From contig NC_091976.1 of assembly GCF_036711975.1 (NCBI RefSeq), positions 21,390,001 to 21,454,000 of the forward strand: a stretch of DNA of 64,000 bases, in the 5' to 3' direction. A program made the translations under genes and the position numbers. Shown here in pieces: positions 23,951 through 29,955 of this stretch. How positions within the stretch are numbered: position 1 is the first letter of the stretch; every line of letters begins with the position of its first letter. The stretch comes from Onthophagus taurus (taxonomy: Eukaryota > Arthropoda > Insecta > Coleoptera > Scarabaeidae). Below the pieces are notes generated by a model that made no database searches, was not told where the DNA came from, and was given only the letters and a program-made list of their open reading frames with translations.

Positions 23951-25392
23951 GAAATAAACTTAAAACTCTCAACTTCCGAGTTATATTTATCAGTAATTTT
24001 TGCATACTTTTTAATTTAATAAATGTTAACATTTAAGTTTAAACAAAGAATCTTATTATACAATTTATTTAAATTAGATAAAATGTGTGTTGATTTACAA
24101 ATAATGTATACTGATAACGATACGTACAGGAAATGGGGAAGGTTGGTAAGGAAAAAAATTATTAATGTAGGGCAGATAAAAAATTGATAACAATGAGTTG
24201 TACCGTAAATTAGAAATGATGCACCTGAGAATATAATAAAATAAAAAAAAATAATATTTGAAATAAGAAAAACCACCCATATTAGGAAATACTTTGATTT
24301 CTGAGGATCCCGGGAAATTTATCAACGATTTCAACGTTGGATGAGTAATCGACTCGATCACCTTGGAAATATTAATGCGCAATGTAATGCACAAAAAGGG
24401 GAACTAATAATTTCGACTTTTATTAATCATCGATACTCTAAAGAAAATTTTAAATAAAATTCGTTGGAACACTTCAAAATTGTGTAATAAACGTTATTGC
24501 TTCCCGAAACAGTCGTTATTTTACAAACAAGTTATTTAAAAAATATTGTAGGAATCCTCTTTTATTTGTTTTTGGGGTAATTTAAGATATTTTTGGGTTT
24601 TATTAAAGGCAGGTAAGAAAAGGGAAACTTCCTTGAGTTTCTTCCGCATAGCTGAGTGATTATTAAGACTTAAAACTCAGACAGGTTGTCGCAAATAACA
24701 AAGACAAGGCGAGGAAACACAATGAGCGTTAAATCCAGGTCGAACGTGAATCATTTCACGTTCTTAGAACATTCTCAGAAATCGTCGTCGACTCCACTGG
24801 TAAACCTGCAGCCGGTTTATGACAAATAAAATGTTTTAAACAAATTTGAAATGTCAATAAAGAAAAAAAAATGCCTTAATTTATTATCACTTTTTCTTTT
24901 ATGTAAATTAAGATGAATCAATGTTTGTAATTCGTGAATCATTTTAGAAACATATTTAACAAATTTCTAATATTAATATTTTTTTCGTTTTACTGATTTT
25001 CTTTTTTGTTGTAGGGCATCTTCAGGGAACTTTAATGAACCTAAGTGAAATTAAGCAAACCCCAAAATAACTTGTGAAGTTCGTTACAAATAATAAAATG
25101 TCATGTTGTGAGGTTTCTTGTGAATCTAATTTTTGAGTATTTTATGATCTGTTAATGTTAAAACTCATAATTATTAAAAATCATGGTCGGTAAGAAGATT
25201 ATTTTTAGCCAGATTGGGTGGACTTAACATAAAGGTGCATCTCCACTATGCCGATTGGCAATACCGATCGGCAAAGCCAATTGGCTTTGCTGAAATTTTA
25301 GTTAACGTCCTCACAACACAGAAAGTGAGTACGTGCCGGACTATTTACACCCGATTCTATTTGCGTTTATTTATCCCTGAAAATGAGTGAAA

Positions 25393-27250
25393 ATGATTGT
25401 TAGTGAATGTGTTGTTAAAAAACGCACGAAATTGAAGAGAAGATTTTGGATTCGACCAAGCCTTCGAAACAGAAATAAATATCGGGGAAGTGATTTAATA
25501 AAAGAATTAATATTGGACGACGCTGATAATATAAACTTAGAATATAGAAGTGATGTTGGATTCACAAACTTTTTTCGAATGACGAGTTCGGATTTTGAAG
25601 ATTTACTAAATATGATAGGACCCAAAATTACCAAGAACGATACAAAATTTAGACAAGCCATACCAGCTAGCGAACGTCAAGCAGTAACATTGCGATTTCT
25701 TGCTACAGGAGATTCTTACCACTCTCTTATGTATACTTTTAAAATTTCAAAGCAAGTTATTTCAAGAACTGTACCGGACGTTTGTGAAGCATTAATACAC
25801 TCACTTCGAGATTATGTTAAGGTAAGAAATACAATGAGATTTTTTTATAATTTATTCATAAATAAAAAAATAAAAAACTCTATAATTGGCACAAAATTGA
25901 ATCAATATCTTCTGTTACTTCTGTTGTGGAAGACATTGTGTCCGAAATCAAATGCACTTCTGAAGGAGTAGTAGATGTGGTTGGAGGTCTTAAATTTGTT
26001 GAGTAGTTTGCATGAACCATTGGTTGGGGTTGTGGGTAATGATATTGTTGGGACCCAAAAAAAGGTTTGTCGTTTTTTCCCATTTCCGCCTCAAAGAGAG
26101 TGTTAGTTATTATGTGTTGTACCATAAATCGAGCATGAGGACATAGTAATTTCCTGACTTTGATGGCAACCTGCTCACCAAATATTGCGAACTCATCTTT
26201 TTCCTACTTCTTTGTGTTTAATGACCTTAAAATGTTCATGGCTTCGTGTAGTACAGGCGTAGTAGATGGAAATTCTCGTTTTCTTTTAAAAGATCTACTT
26301 GAAGATGATGTAGAAGATGCAGGTGTTGGTGGATTCTCTTCTGTTGGTGCATGTAGTGAATTCTCTTCTATTGTCTCATCTTCTTGTTGAAGTGTTTCCT
26401 TAATCTGAAAGAAATTTTTCGTTACAGATGCCACAAAATGAGAGAGATTGGGAGATTATAGCCCGAGAGTTCCAGGATAAATGGAACTTTCCACATTGTG
26501 TTGGTGCAATGGATGGGAAGCACATAACTCTACAAGCTCCTCTGAATAGTGGTTCCGATTTCTTTTAACTACAAGTCATTCTTCAGCATTGTACTAGTTG
26601 CAGTGGTTGATGCAAATTACAACTTTATATATGCAAACGTTGGTTCTCAAGGAAGAATATCAGATGGTGGCGTATTTAATGCAACACATTTCAAGAAATG
26701 TTTTGAAGAGAGCACATTGAATCTGCCTTCAGCCCTAGTTTTACCGGGACGGCACGTGGAAGTTCCATTTGTGTTTGTTGGGGATGACGCTTTTCCACTA
26801 TCATGTAATATTATGAAACCTTTTCCGGGATTACAAGACAAAGGATCTAAAACAAGGATTTTTAACTATCGATTAAGCAGGGCAAGAAGGGTTTCGGAAA
26901 ACGCGTTTGGAATATTGAGTTCAGTTTTTCGAATACTAAGAAAACCTATATTATTACAACCGGAAACAGCAACGAAAATAACATTGACTTTAATACATTT
27001 ACATAATTACTTAAGGAAAAATAGATCAAAAAATCTTTACAGCCCCAAAGAATGCTTTGATTTAGAATCTACGAATACTGGAGATATTACTCCAGGACTA
27101 TGGAGACAAGATGTTGCGCATTTCCAAATGATGAGTATTCCAAAAATACCTCGAAGGAGCACAAATGCAGCACAAGCTGTGAGAAACGAGTTTAAGGAAT
27201 ATTTTAATTCACCGGAAGGAGATTTACCATTTCAGCGCAAACATAACTAA
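25393..27250 (+). pseudogene. Harbinger (HARBI1-like) transposase, frameshifted
   Basis: Exon 1 (25393-25821) and exon 2 (from 26428) join in phase 0 through a GTAAGA...ACAG intron. Exon 1 encodes the N-terminal helix-turn-helix-like part (FRMTSSDFEDLLNMIG, RQAVTLRFLATGDSY). Exon 2 carries the DDE nuclease: the first Asp in VGAMDGKH, the second in VGDDAFPL and the Glu in RVSENAFGIL. The C-terminus is complete at 27250. Near 26562-26566 one extra T in a T run ends the frame right after GSDF; the next frame resumes with NYKSFFSIVLVAVVDANYN. A GTG six bases before the chosen ATG keeps the frame open but is not needed. The family cuts and pastes element DNA in the nucleus with its MADF/Myb-like partner. 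Confidence 0.9.
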
Positions 27251-27623
27251 TAAATTATTTTGTACTCTAACACTTAGTAAATATAAAATTAACTTACCTC
27301 TGTATCTCTAGTTTTTTTTGGTTTATTTCTATCCCTAAGAAATTCCATACTTTTATAGGCAAACCATTTGCTTTTATAGGAAGAATCTGAACCAGCGCCA
27401 GACTTATTACATTCATCTTCTTTTTTAATTTCTCTTGAAAAATGGCTCAATAAATTTTTAATTCAACTTCAGTCCTTTCCACTCCAAATGAAACAGCAAT
27501 TTCTAAAAGCGCATCATGCTTCTTATTTTTATTCTTATAATCTGCTGAATTGCAATCCCATAGATTTGTACGCTCGCGGTACATATCAATAATAATTATT
27601 GTATCAGAATTGGTCCACTCCAT
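25880..27623 (-). pseudogene. Harbinger MADF-domain accessory protein, disrupted
   Basis: Exon 1 (27623-27298) begins MEWTNSDTIIIIDMYRERTN and reads LWDCNSADYKNKNKK, a MADF (Myb/SANT-like) DNA-binding domain that includes SYKSKWFAYKSMEFL. Exon 2 (26404-25880) joins in phase 0 through GTAAGT...TTTCAG and gives a Ser/Pro-rich linker and a C-terminal tail. Two lesions are visible: a one-base loss in an A run near 27452-27456 (minus strand) shifts the MADF frame, and an in-frame TAG after LRSLNTKK (about 26202) cuts the tail. In this superfamily the accessory protein binds the ends and carries the transposase into the nucleus. Each of its exons lies in or beyond the transposase intron/exon on the other strand. 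Confidence 0.8.
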
Positions 27624-28207
27624 GTTGATTTAAACTCTTAATGAATTGGTAAAAATGTGTTGGTGGTCAGTACGTACACACTACTCGCATCGGCCCGGTT
27701 TTCTTTGATAAAAACCGACAAGAGTCGGGTTCGAATCGGCATGCCGGTCTGCTGATCGGCAAGGCCGCATAGGATGTCCCCACCACTGCGGATTTGCCAA
27801 TCGGCATAGTGGAGATGCACCTTAAGTGATATATCATTTCAACAAGATGGTGCGATACAGCACACAGCTGATCAAATAATTGATTTATTAAAGAGAAAGT
27901 TCAATAACTGTGTAATGGCCACCTCGCTCATAGGATTTTACGCCAATAGGTTCCTTTTTATGGGATTACGTTAGATTGTTGGTTTATGTTAACAAGTCAA
28001 CAACGTTAGAAGAGGTTATCGAACGTAAAATGCTAACTTTTTCACCGATATGAGTGATAAAATAATGCAAGATTGGTTCTAAATAGTGGTGGAACGGATA
28101 GTTACCAAATATCCGGCTTTGGGCGGATATTAAAAACTTATTACTTAGTACGCCACCATTCACAGGAATTAGTATCTCTTTTAGGTGTTGGACACTGCAG
28201 ATAATAA

Positions 28208-29955
28208 TCAAGTTAAATATGAGCGGCGCAATTTGTTGATATGCCTCGTCCCTGGTATGTTAACAATCTGAAGTGCTTTGCTCGAATTGTCGCTTTCATC
28301 TTTACCTTGATACTATGGTCGGAAAATTTCAATCTTCTGTCTATCGAGATTCCCAGGTATTTACAGCTTGTTGAGGGGGATATGATCGTGGATTGGATGG
28401 TTACAGAGCGAGAAGGAGGATGGGAAGAAATGGAATGAAAAATTGAGTTTTAGATAGGTTAACTTGGATTCTCCATTTTCCAGCCAACTCTCTGTGGATT
28501 GGATTAGCGCGTGAAGCCTTTGGATTGCGGATGTGATAATTGCACCGTGTGTCACCAAAGTGGCGTCGTCAGCGTAGAGCAGTGCGTATGATAATAAGAG
28601 GCTCCAAAAAAGATGATGGTCTATGCCTCCATAAAGAAGTAGCTGTCAGTATCAAGAACAAAACATACATAACGTTGGCAGAAGACTAGATACTGCTTCT
28701 AAAAAACTAAATACTGCTTTCTGAAGACTAGATACTGCTCTGGAAGATTAAATACTGCTTTCTGAAGACTAGATACTGCCGGCAGGTCTAAGTATTGCAA
28801 AAGAAAGATAAGATATTGTTGGAGAAAACATACATAACGTTGTCAGAAGACTAGATACTGCTTCTAGAAGACTAAATACTGCTTTCTGAAGACTAGTTAC
28901 TTCCGACAGGTCTAAATACAGCGTCTGGAACACTAAATACTGCCTTCTAAAGACTAAAATTGCTTTATGGAGACTAAATACTGCTTTCTGAAGACTAGAT
29001 ACTACTAACAGGTCTAAATACTGCAAAAGAAAGATAAAATATTTTGGAGAAAACATACATAACTTTGGCAGAAGACTACATACTGCTTCTAGAAGACTAA
29101 ATGCTGCTTTCTGAAGACTAAATACTGCCGACAGGTCTAAATACAGCGTCTGGAACACTAAATACTGCTTTCTAAAGACTAAAATTGCTTTGTGGAGACT
29201 AAATACTGCTTTCTGAAGACTAGCTACTGCTGACAGGTCTAAATACTGCAAAAGAAAGATAAGATATTGTTGGAGAAAACATTAAGAAGGCGCCGGCGTC
29301 TCCTTTTAAGCGGCGCCTGGGTGCTTTGCACCCCTTGCACCCCCCGGTAGCGCCGCCTCTGGTTATCAGGGATCTTATGTTTCGCGCGCAGACGATCATG
29401 TCCGGAGTTGTTTACCATAATAAAAGTTGGGGAAGTTTTAATTCGTTCAAAATTAGTCGAAGATACGAATCGGTTGATGTGTTTGCTTTTAGCAGGGTTT
29501 GGATTAAAATCACCAATAATCAAACAGTTATTATGCAAAGAAGCCATGTTGAATATTGACTCTTCGATTTGACTATGTAGATGAACGTAGACCAGATATA
29601 TAGATATGCAGTGCTTCTGTGCCGAGCGTGATAGTAAAATGAAGAGCGTTGTTTAACTCACAGTTGATTCGCAGATGACCACGGCTCCACCTCTCACGCC
29701 TCTATTAATCACGTTGCCTGCTTCTTCAATTACTCTCCAGTTCTTGAACTTCGATTTTGTCTCAACAAACATTGCACAGTTGATGCGGTTGCAATTTGTG
29801 AAGTTTTCAATTATATGGGATTTTGGATGGTAGCTATTAATGTTTGCGTAGAGCAATCGTAGCTCAGTCATTGCTGCTTCTGTAAGATCGTGGATTGGGA
29901 ACAATGACTCGGCTCTGTGGGAGACGGCTTGGAAACATCTTGCAGATCGATCATG
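28208..29955 (-). mobile_element. LINE remnant with endonuclease and RT pieces
   Basis: On the minus strand 29904-29653 encodes an endonuclease N-terminus (TELRLLYANINSYHPKSH), 29547-29350 its later motif (CLIIGDFNPNPAKS), and 28620-28250 reverse transcriptase with an intact YADD box (ALLYADDATLV). The order is correct for one non-LTR element. The segment between them (28665-29281), where the front of the reverse transcriptase would be, is a tandem-repeat array. Many stops and frameshifts are present. Confidence 0.75.
28665..29281. repeat. Nested minisatellite, ~224-bp unit of ~25-bp subunits
   Basis: The phrase GAAGACTAAATACTGCTTTCT recurs many times with small changes. A higher-order landmark, GAGAAAACATACATAAC, occurs near 28660, 28825, 29050 and (truncated) 29274, giving units of about 165, 224 and 224 bp. 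Long open frames on the minus strand are a by-product of the repeat and are not treated as a gene. Confidence 0.9.

Follow-up and report, generated by a model that had tools for sequence, protein, structure and literature searches.

A PIF/Harbinger element with predicted interlocked transposase and MADF genes in the genome of Onthophagus taurus

The element and its two genes

The 64-kb stretch of Onthophagus taurus DNA that was analysed (hereafter, the window) contains a PIF/Harbinger element of 2,590 bp, with a transposase gene on the plus strand and a gene for a MADF-domain protein on the minus strand. Each gene is predicted to consist of two exons, called here T1 and T2 for the transposase gene and M1 and M2 for the MADF gene. 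In window coordinates, the features are as follows.

25230–25232, no strand: left target site duplication, TAA, pairing with 27823–27825
25233–27822, no strand: whole PIF/Harbinger element, 2,590 bp, with perfect terminal inverted repeats, a target site duplication and five other near-full copies
25233–25260, plus strand: left terminal inverted repeat, 28 bp compared, no mismatch against the right end
25393–25821, plus strand: predicted transposase exon 1 (T1), found with the T1 profile in other families; donor GTAAGA
25822–26427, plus strand: predicted transposase intron, phase 0, holding all of M2; all six copies retain its donor and acceptor
25851–25856, minus strand: AATAAA past the MADF stop codon, within the transposase intron beside its donor
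25880–26404, minus strand: predicted MADF exon 2 (M2), C-terminal region, with a stop codon at 26204–26206; found with the leave-family-out profile; acceptor TTTCAG
26405–26427, no strand: back-to-back acceptor segment, 23 bp, ending in AG on both strands
26405–27297, minus strand: predicted MADF intron, phase 0, holding all of T2; acceptor AG in all six copies, donor GT in four of them
26428–27250, plus strand: predicted transposase exon 2 (T2), DDE_Tnp_4, with a frame break near 26565; PF13359, E 9e-20; acceptor TTACAG
27249–27254, plus strand: AATAAA in the gap that precedes M1, sharing bases with the transposase stop codon
27298–27623, minus strand: predicted MADF exon 1 (M1), with a short deletion near 27465 that breaks the frame; PF10545, E 1e-6; donor GTAAGT
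27795–27822, minus strand: right terminal inverted repeat
27823–27825, no strand: right target site duplication, TAA

The original prediction had recognised a Harbinger element with a transposase and a MADF gene, and both parts of this assignment are confirmed. The ends are perfect 28-bp repeats flanked by a 3-bp duplication of TAA, and T2 is a DDE_Tnp_4 domain (Pfam PF13359, E 9e-20). As for the second gene, the match to Pfam PF10545 in the window copy covers the first part of M1 (E 1e-6), and the predicted spliced MADF frame of the window-family copy at locus L002 matches the whole PF10545 model (1–84 of 84, E 1.9e-17). At E ≤ 0.001, no Pfam family was matched by T1, by the first piece of T2, or by the two M2 pieces of the window copy, and a comparison of T2 with solved structures gave no match at E ≤ 0.1. 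A scan of the element for bacterial-type promoters returned 9 sites; shuffled sequences averaged 8.9.

The earlier idea that two proteins are packed into 2.6 kb holds for the 2,590-bp layout but not for the window copy itself: both of its genes are broken (a frame break in T2, a short deletion in M1, and a stop codon in M2), and, as read from its frames, it is unable to encode either protein whole. The start of T1 at 25393 is likewise, on comparison of the copies, an outcome of the decay of the window copy. In five of the seven other copies read, T1 starts at an ATG matching position 25383 and has 15–16 extra in-frame residues, an N-terminal extension that is missing from T1 of the window copy. 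The extra N-terminus of these five copies contains an alanine run from a GCT repeat (MSDEEDQLLLAAAAA...), which is one unit longer in the copy C7_28.2; the alanine-run stretch is absent from the window copy and from the copies C3_17.4 and C3_8.5.

In the neighbourhood of the element, about 0.9 kb away, lies a tandem array (28681–29282) in which a degenerate 21-bp unit is contained in a higher-order unit of 225 bp, present in 2.6 copies with 90% matches. Two open reading frames on the minus strand, 28361–28645 and 29239–29652, look by eye like parts of a non-LTR retrotransposon (a YADD-like motif and an endonuclease-like stretch). The second of these has a sub-threshold Pfam match to Exo_endo_phos_2 (E 0.06), and the first has no Pfam match.

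Mutual nesting in the window copy and its close copies

Along the plus strand the four blocks are ordered T1, M2, T2, M1, with M2 and M1 facing the opposite way, so that each predicted second exon lies wholly within the intron of the other gene on the opposite strand. The reciprocal nesting that had been proposed is thus borne out by the predicted exon and intron coordinates, and it is repeated in all six near-full copies. The two acceptors, placed earlier about 20 bp apart, are separated by 23 bp, and given this spacing the branch site of each intron probably falls inside the opposite-strand exon of the other gene. It had also been suggested that both messages form long antisense overlaps, but the predicted exons have no base in common. 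Since the exons share no base and the AATAAA sequences lie in the short gaps, only the unspliced precursors would be complementary; on the predicted gene models, this complementarity would amount to about 1.4 kb.

A search of the genome (290.8 Mb, 33 contigs) found five other near-full copies, whose identity to the window copy is 97.7–98.6% and whose target duplications are TAA, TAA, TTA, TTA and TTC. Pairwise identity among all six is 97.5–98.7%. The transposase donor GT and acceptor AG are present in 6/6 copies, as is the acceptor AG of the MADF intron, and the MADF donor is GT in 4/6 and AT in 2/6; these counts leave out three aligned partial copies (C11, C8 and C5). The search had been proposed as a way of finding intact copies with the same layout, and the frames of both genes are uninterrupted at L002, where the predicted spliced MADF frame has 285 codons, T2 is open for 271 codons to its stop, and T1 is open too. 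A retrocopy with M1 and M2 of the window family joined was not seen among the 46 matches listed, none of which extended more than 5 residues across the junction. About 0.6 kb from M1 of the copy C3_17.4, at C3:17435054–17436304 (in L003), there is a second, facing PIF element.

Diverged families, unlocked relatives and the predicted junctions

Loci of more distant relatives in the same genome were selected, among the matches listed, by similarity to the window proteins, and were searched with profiles of the four blocks. Clustering of T2 at 80% DNA identity gave 20 clusters, which are counted as 19 because L046 and L070 are the same place. All four blocks occur in the order T1, M2, T2, M1 with the orientations of the window copy in 9/19 clusters; in one of these nine (L082 and L064) the order was assembled from two loci, which are overlapping stretches of one element. 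Two further clusters (L017/L022/L052 and L065) have the partial order M2, T2, M1 only, two (L084 and L085) are unlocked, and six are too short or decayed for their layout to be judged. In none of the 19 were the four blocks found in any other order. With the decayed L046/L070 set aside, T2 of the interlocked clusters is 46–57% identical to that of the window. The interlocked layout is therefore not an accident of one copy.

When places were counted by M2 among the matches listed, M2 was located between opposite-strand T1 and T2 matches in 15 of 50 places (8 of the 15 belonging to the window family) and beyond T2 in one place, C7:1402856; the remaining places had no T1 or T2 match nearby or were ambiguous. 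In the sequence examined, M2 was not found upstream of T2 at L017, L018, L027, L030/L031, L051/L083, L077, L078 and L081, and fellow cluster members of L017, L018, L027 and L081 do have it there. We had considered L081/L058 as a short-intron family lacking M2; this reading was dropped, as L081 clusters with the M2-bearing L082, and L081 is now read as a deletion derivative. Homology to M1 falls into two pieces at L021, L026 and L038, which suggests an extra intron in the MADF part, and the same is hinted at in L020, L022 and L030. At the decayed locus L078 (C11:5029588–5031314), two element parts each match twice, about 450 bp apart, a doubling of the same type as the partial tandem duplication that the relocation model given below requires.

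Recognition of M2 was examined with a profile built from the other families only, which was searched against the 1,105 open reading frames of the 64-kb window and L002. On the minus strand it matched L002 at E 4e-20 and the window piece 26203–25883 at E 4e-11, and beyond these two no match was listed among the 1,105 frames at E ≤ 10; this test is not wholly independent, since M2 of the other families was first found by iterated search from that of the window family. Among 16,117 open reading frames from 200 dinucleotide shuffles of L002, the M2, T1 and M1 profiles gave no match at E < 1e-3.

Splice-site sequences recur across the families. YAG stands directly before T2 in all 18 of the loci that could be displayed (of 28 given), and most families having a complete T1 end it with a GTAAG-like donor. 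M1 ends with a GT donor in most families, not in all (none is evident, for example, in L019 and L022). At 11 of the 13 loci read (all but L035 and L082), the start of M2 coincides with a phase-0 acceptor preceded by a pyrimidine-rich stretch, and in five of these 11 the acceptor AG is that of an in-frame stop codon, so that the phase of M2 is no independent test. The two acceptors are 23 bp apart at L002, 27 or 51 bp at L024, 61 bp at L022, 103 bp at L038 and L026, 112 bp at L034 and 114 bp at L028; for this measurement, the T2 start was not found at the expected base in L019, L021, L032 and L033.

Copies of the family showing no introns at these sites had been named in advance as evidence against the prediction. 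In the part of this comparison that was carried out, the close copies retain the splice sites, and in some distant relatives the intron or the nesting is missing; such relatives support the predicted junctions rather than refute them. At L084 the transposase is uninterrupted (334 codons, PF13359 E 2.2e-29), and neither M1 nor M2 was found within the 2.3 kb examined around it. When the joined transposase exons of five families were compared with this protein, the alignment crossed the junction ungapped in three (L035, L034 and L023). With L002 there is a gap 4 residues past the junction, at codons missing from the L002 copy, and with L082 the aligned block ends at the junction and a gap is located there.

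The transposase of L085 reads ...DYVK, then a 56-nt GT...AG intron-like stretch, then FPQSENDW..., at the same place and in the same phase as the predicted transposase junction. Its MADF matches, M1 at C7:1402373–1402681 and M2 at C7:1402856–1403056, both on the plus strand, are past the end of the transposase and on the strand opposite to it, and from the match positions and frame lengths each is located in a 299-codon frame, in register. Another MADF gene, at L072, has a predicted phase-0 intron of 263 nt between the MADF and C-terminal parts, which is too small for a transposase exon; a T1 match at C8:6579297–6579548 precedes and faces this gene. The predicted 56-nt and 263-nt introns of L085 and L072 indicate that introns at these places exist without interlocking. 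In the same region of C8, a window-family copy (L072:195–1192) adjoins this MADF gene, which belongs to another, unlocked PIF family (L072 from about 1838).

Origin and possible roles of the interlock

Very probably, the window element is a decayed member of a lineage of two-gene PIF/Harbinger transposons in which convergent transposase and MADF genes became interlocked. Transcription of each gene would begin near its own end of the element and proceed inward, antisense through the second exon of the other gene, which would be removed as part of an intron during splicing. The 3' ends of the transcripts would fall in the short gaps that follow each stop codon, and with the opposite exons spliced out the mature messages would share no sequence. 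In this way an intact element may encode both proteins in full with no overlap between their codons. If the zebrafish element Harbinger3_DR is a guide, the MADF protein would attach to the ends of the element and take the transposase into the nucleus.

The most likely origin of the interlock would be a move of the M2 block past T2 into a pre-existing transposase intron, possibly by partial tandem duplication followed by reciprocal loss. A single relocation of this kind would convert the unlocked order T1, T2, M2, M1 (the last two on the opposite strand) into T1, M2, T2, M1, and would at the same time make the MADF intron hold T2; the interlock would afterwards be inherited by descent. The polarity from unlocked to interlocked is drawn from a few unlocked loci, and the number and mechanism of the changes are likewise provisional.

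As to function, we consider it probable that the interlock is without regulatory role, a neutral side effect of a single rearrangement within a compact element. Unlocked relatives are present in the same genome, and families differ in their inter-acceptor gap (23 to 114 bp), which argues that no fixed shared acceptor has been kept. The presence of the interlock in nine diverged clusters could be held against neutrality, although descent alone could also account for it. It is unlikely, though in keeping with the predicted anatomy (about 1.4 kb of precursor complementarity, with 3' ends inside the opposite introns), that the interlock is instead a built-in regulator in which convergent transcription and double-stranded precursor RNA limit or balance the two proteins, as had been suggested earlier; the mature messages have no overlap, and unlocked families persist as well. 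We are similarly doubtful that the transposon lineage evolved and kept the interlocked pair as a selfish control device. If this were true, the element would limit its own expression, as neither gene could be transcribed without an antisense run through the other, and would keep the amounts of the two proteins matched, and internal deletions would tend to remove both proteins together. That M2 is a third, separate antisense gene in the transposase intron and not part of the MADF gene is very improbable: M2 by itself matches no Pfam family at E ≤ 0.001 and its junction with M1 is a predicted one, but no conserved start codon of M2 was seen by eye, the acceptor start recurs in most loci read, M1 ends in a donor in most families, the M1 and M2 matches appear to share one 299-codon frame at the unlocked C7 relative, and at L072 both parts flank an ordinary 263-nt intron.

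PIF/Harbinger elements with two genes are well known. The present element resembles insect elements, zebrafish Harbinger3_DR and the rice elements in having a DDE_Tnp_4 transposase and a MADF-type second gene (a Myb/SANT/MADF accessory), and it shares the 3-bp target duplication and terminal inverted repeats with PIF/Harbinger elements that carry a Myb/SANT/MADF gene. According to the available portion of PMC9710019, both proteins of the rice and zebrafish elements are required for transposition, and the Myb-like protein of the zebrafish element binds close to the ends, with the nuclear entry of both proteins depending on it. Unlike those elements, as they are described in the available portions of PMC9710019 and PMC9179366, the present genes interlock through each other's introns. 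The co-domesticated insect pairs APLG/APM and DPLG7/DPM7 likewise unite a transposase gene with a MADF gene, both derived from one insertion; they are host genes lying side by side, with no interlock described in the available portion of PMC9710019, whereas here the genes are interlocked. Among host genes, a mutually nested pair is known in Drosophila, btv (Dync2h1) and CG5674 (available portion of PMC10556659). That case is a many-exon host locus; here it is a 2.6-kb mobile element with many families and unlocked relatives.

In a literature search to which subscription journals were mostly closed, we found no report of an interlocked gene pair in a Harbinger element or any other transposon. 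Drosophila PIF-like elements were reportedly treated by Casola et al. in 2007, and an interlock may have been described there. Mutual nesting of genes is mostly a one-off accident at one locus, and here it occurs in a mobile, multi-copy element and in many diverged families of one genome. For annotation, exon-by-exon masking can break such elements into four seemingly unrelated fragments. Relatives with introns in identical or similar positions that are not interlocked offer natural material for comparison, and this comparison bears on how interlocked genes originate and on what effect convergent transcription with overlapping precursors may have on a two-protein transposon.
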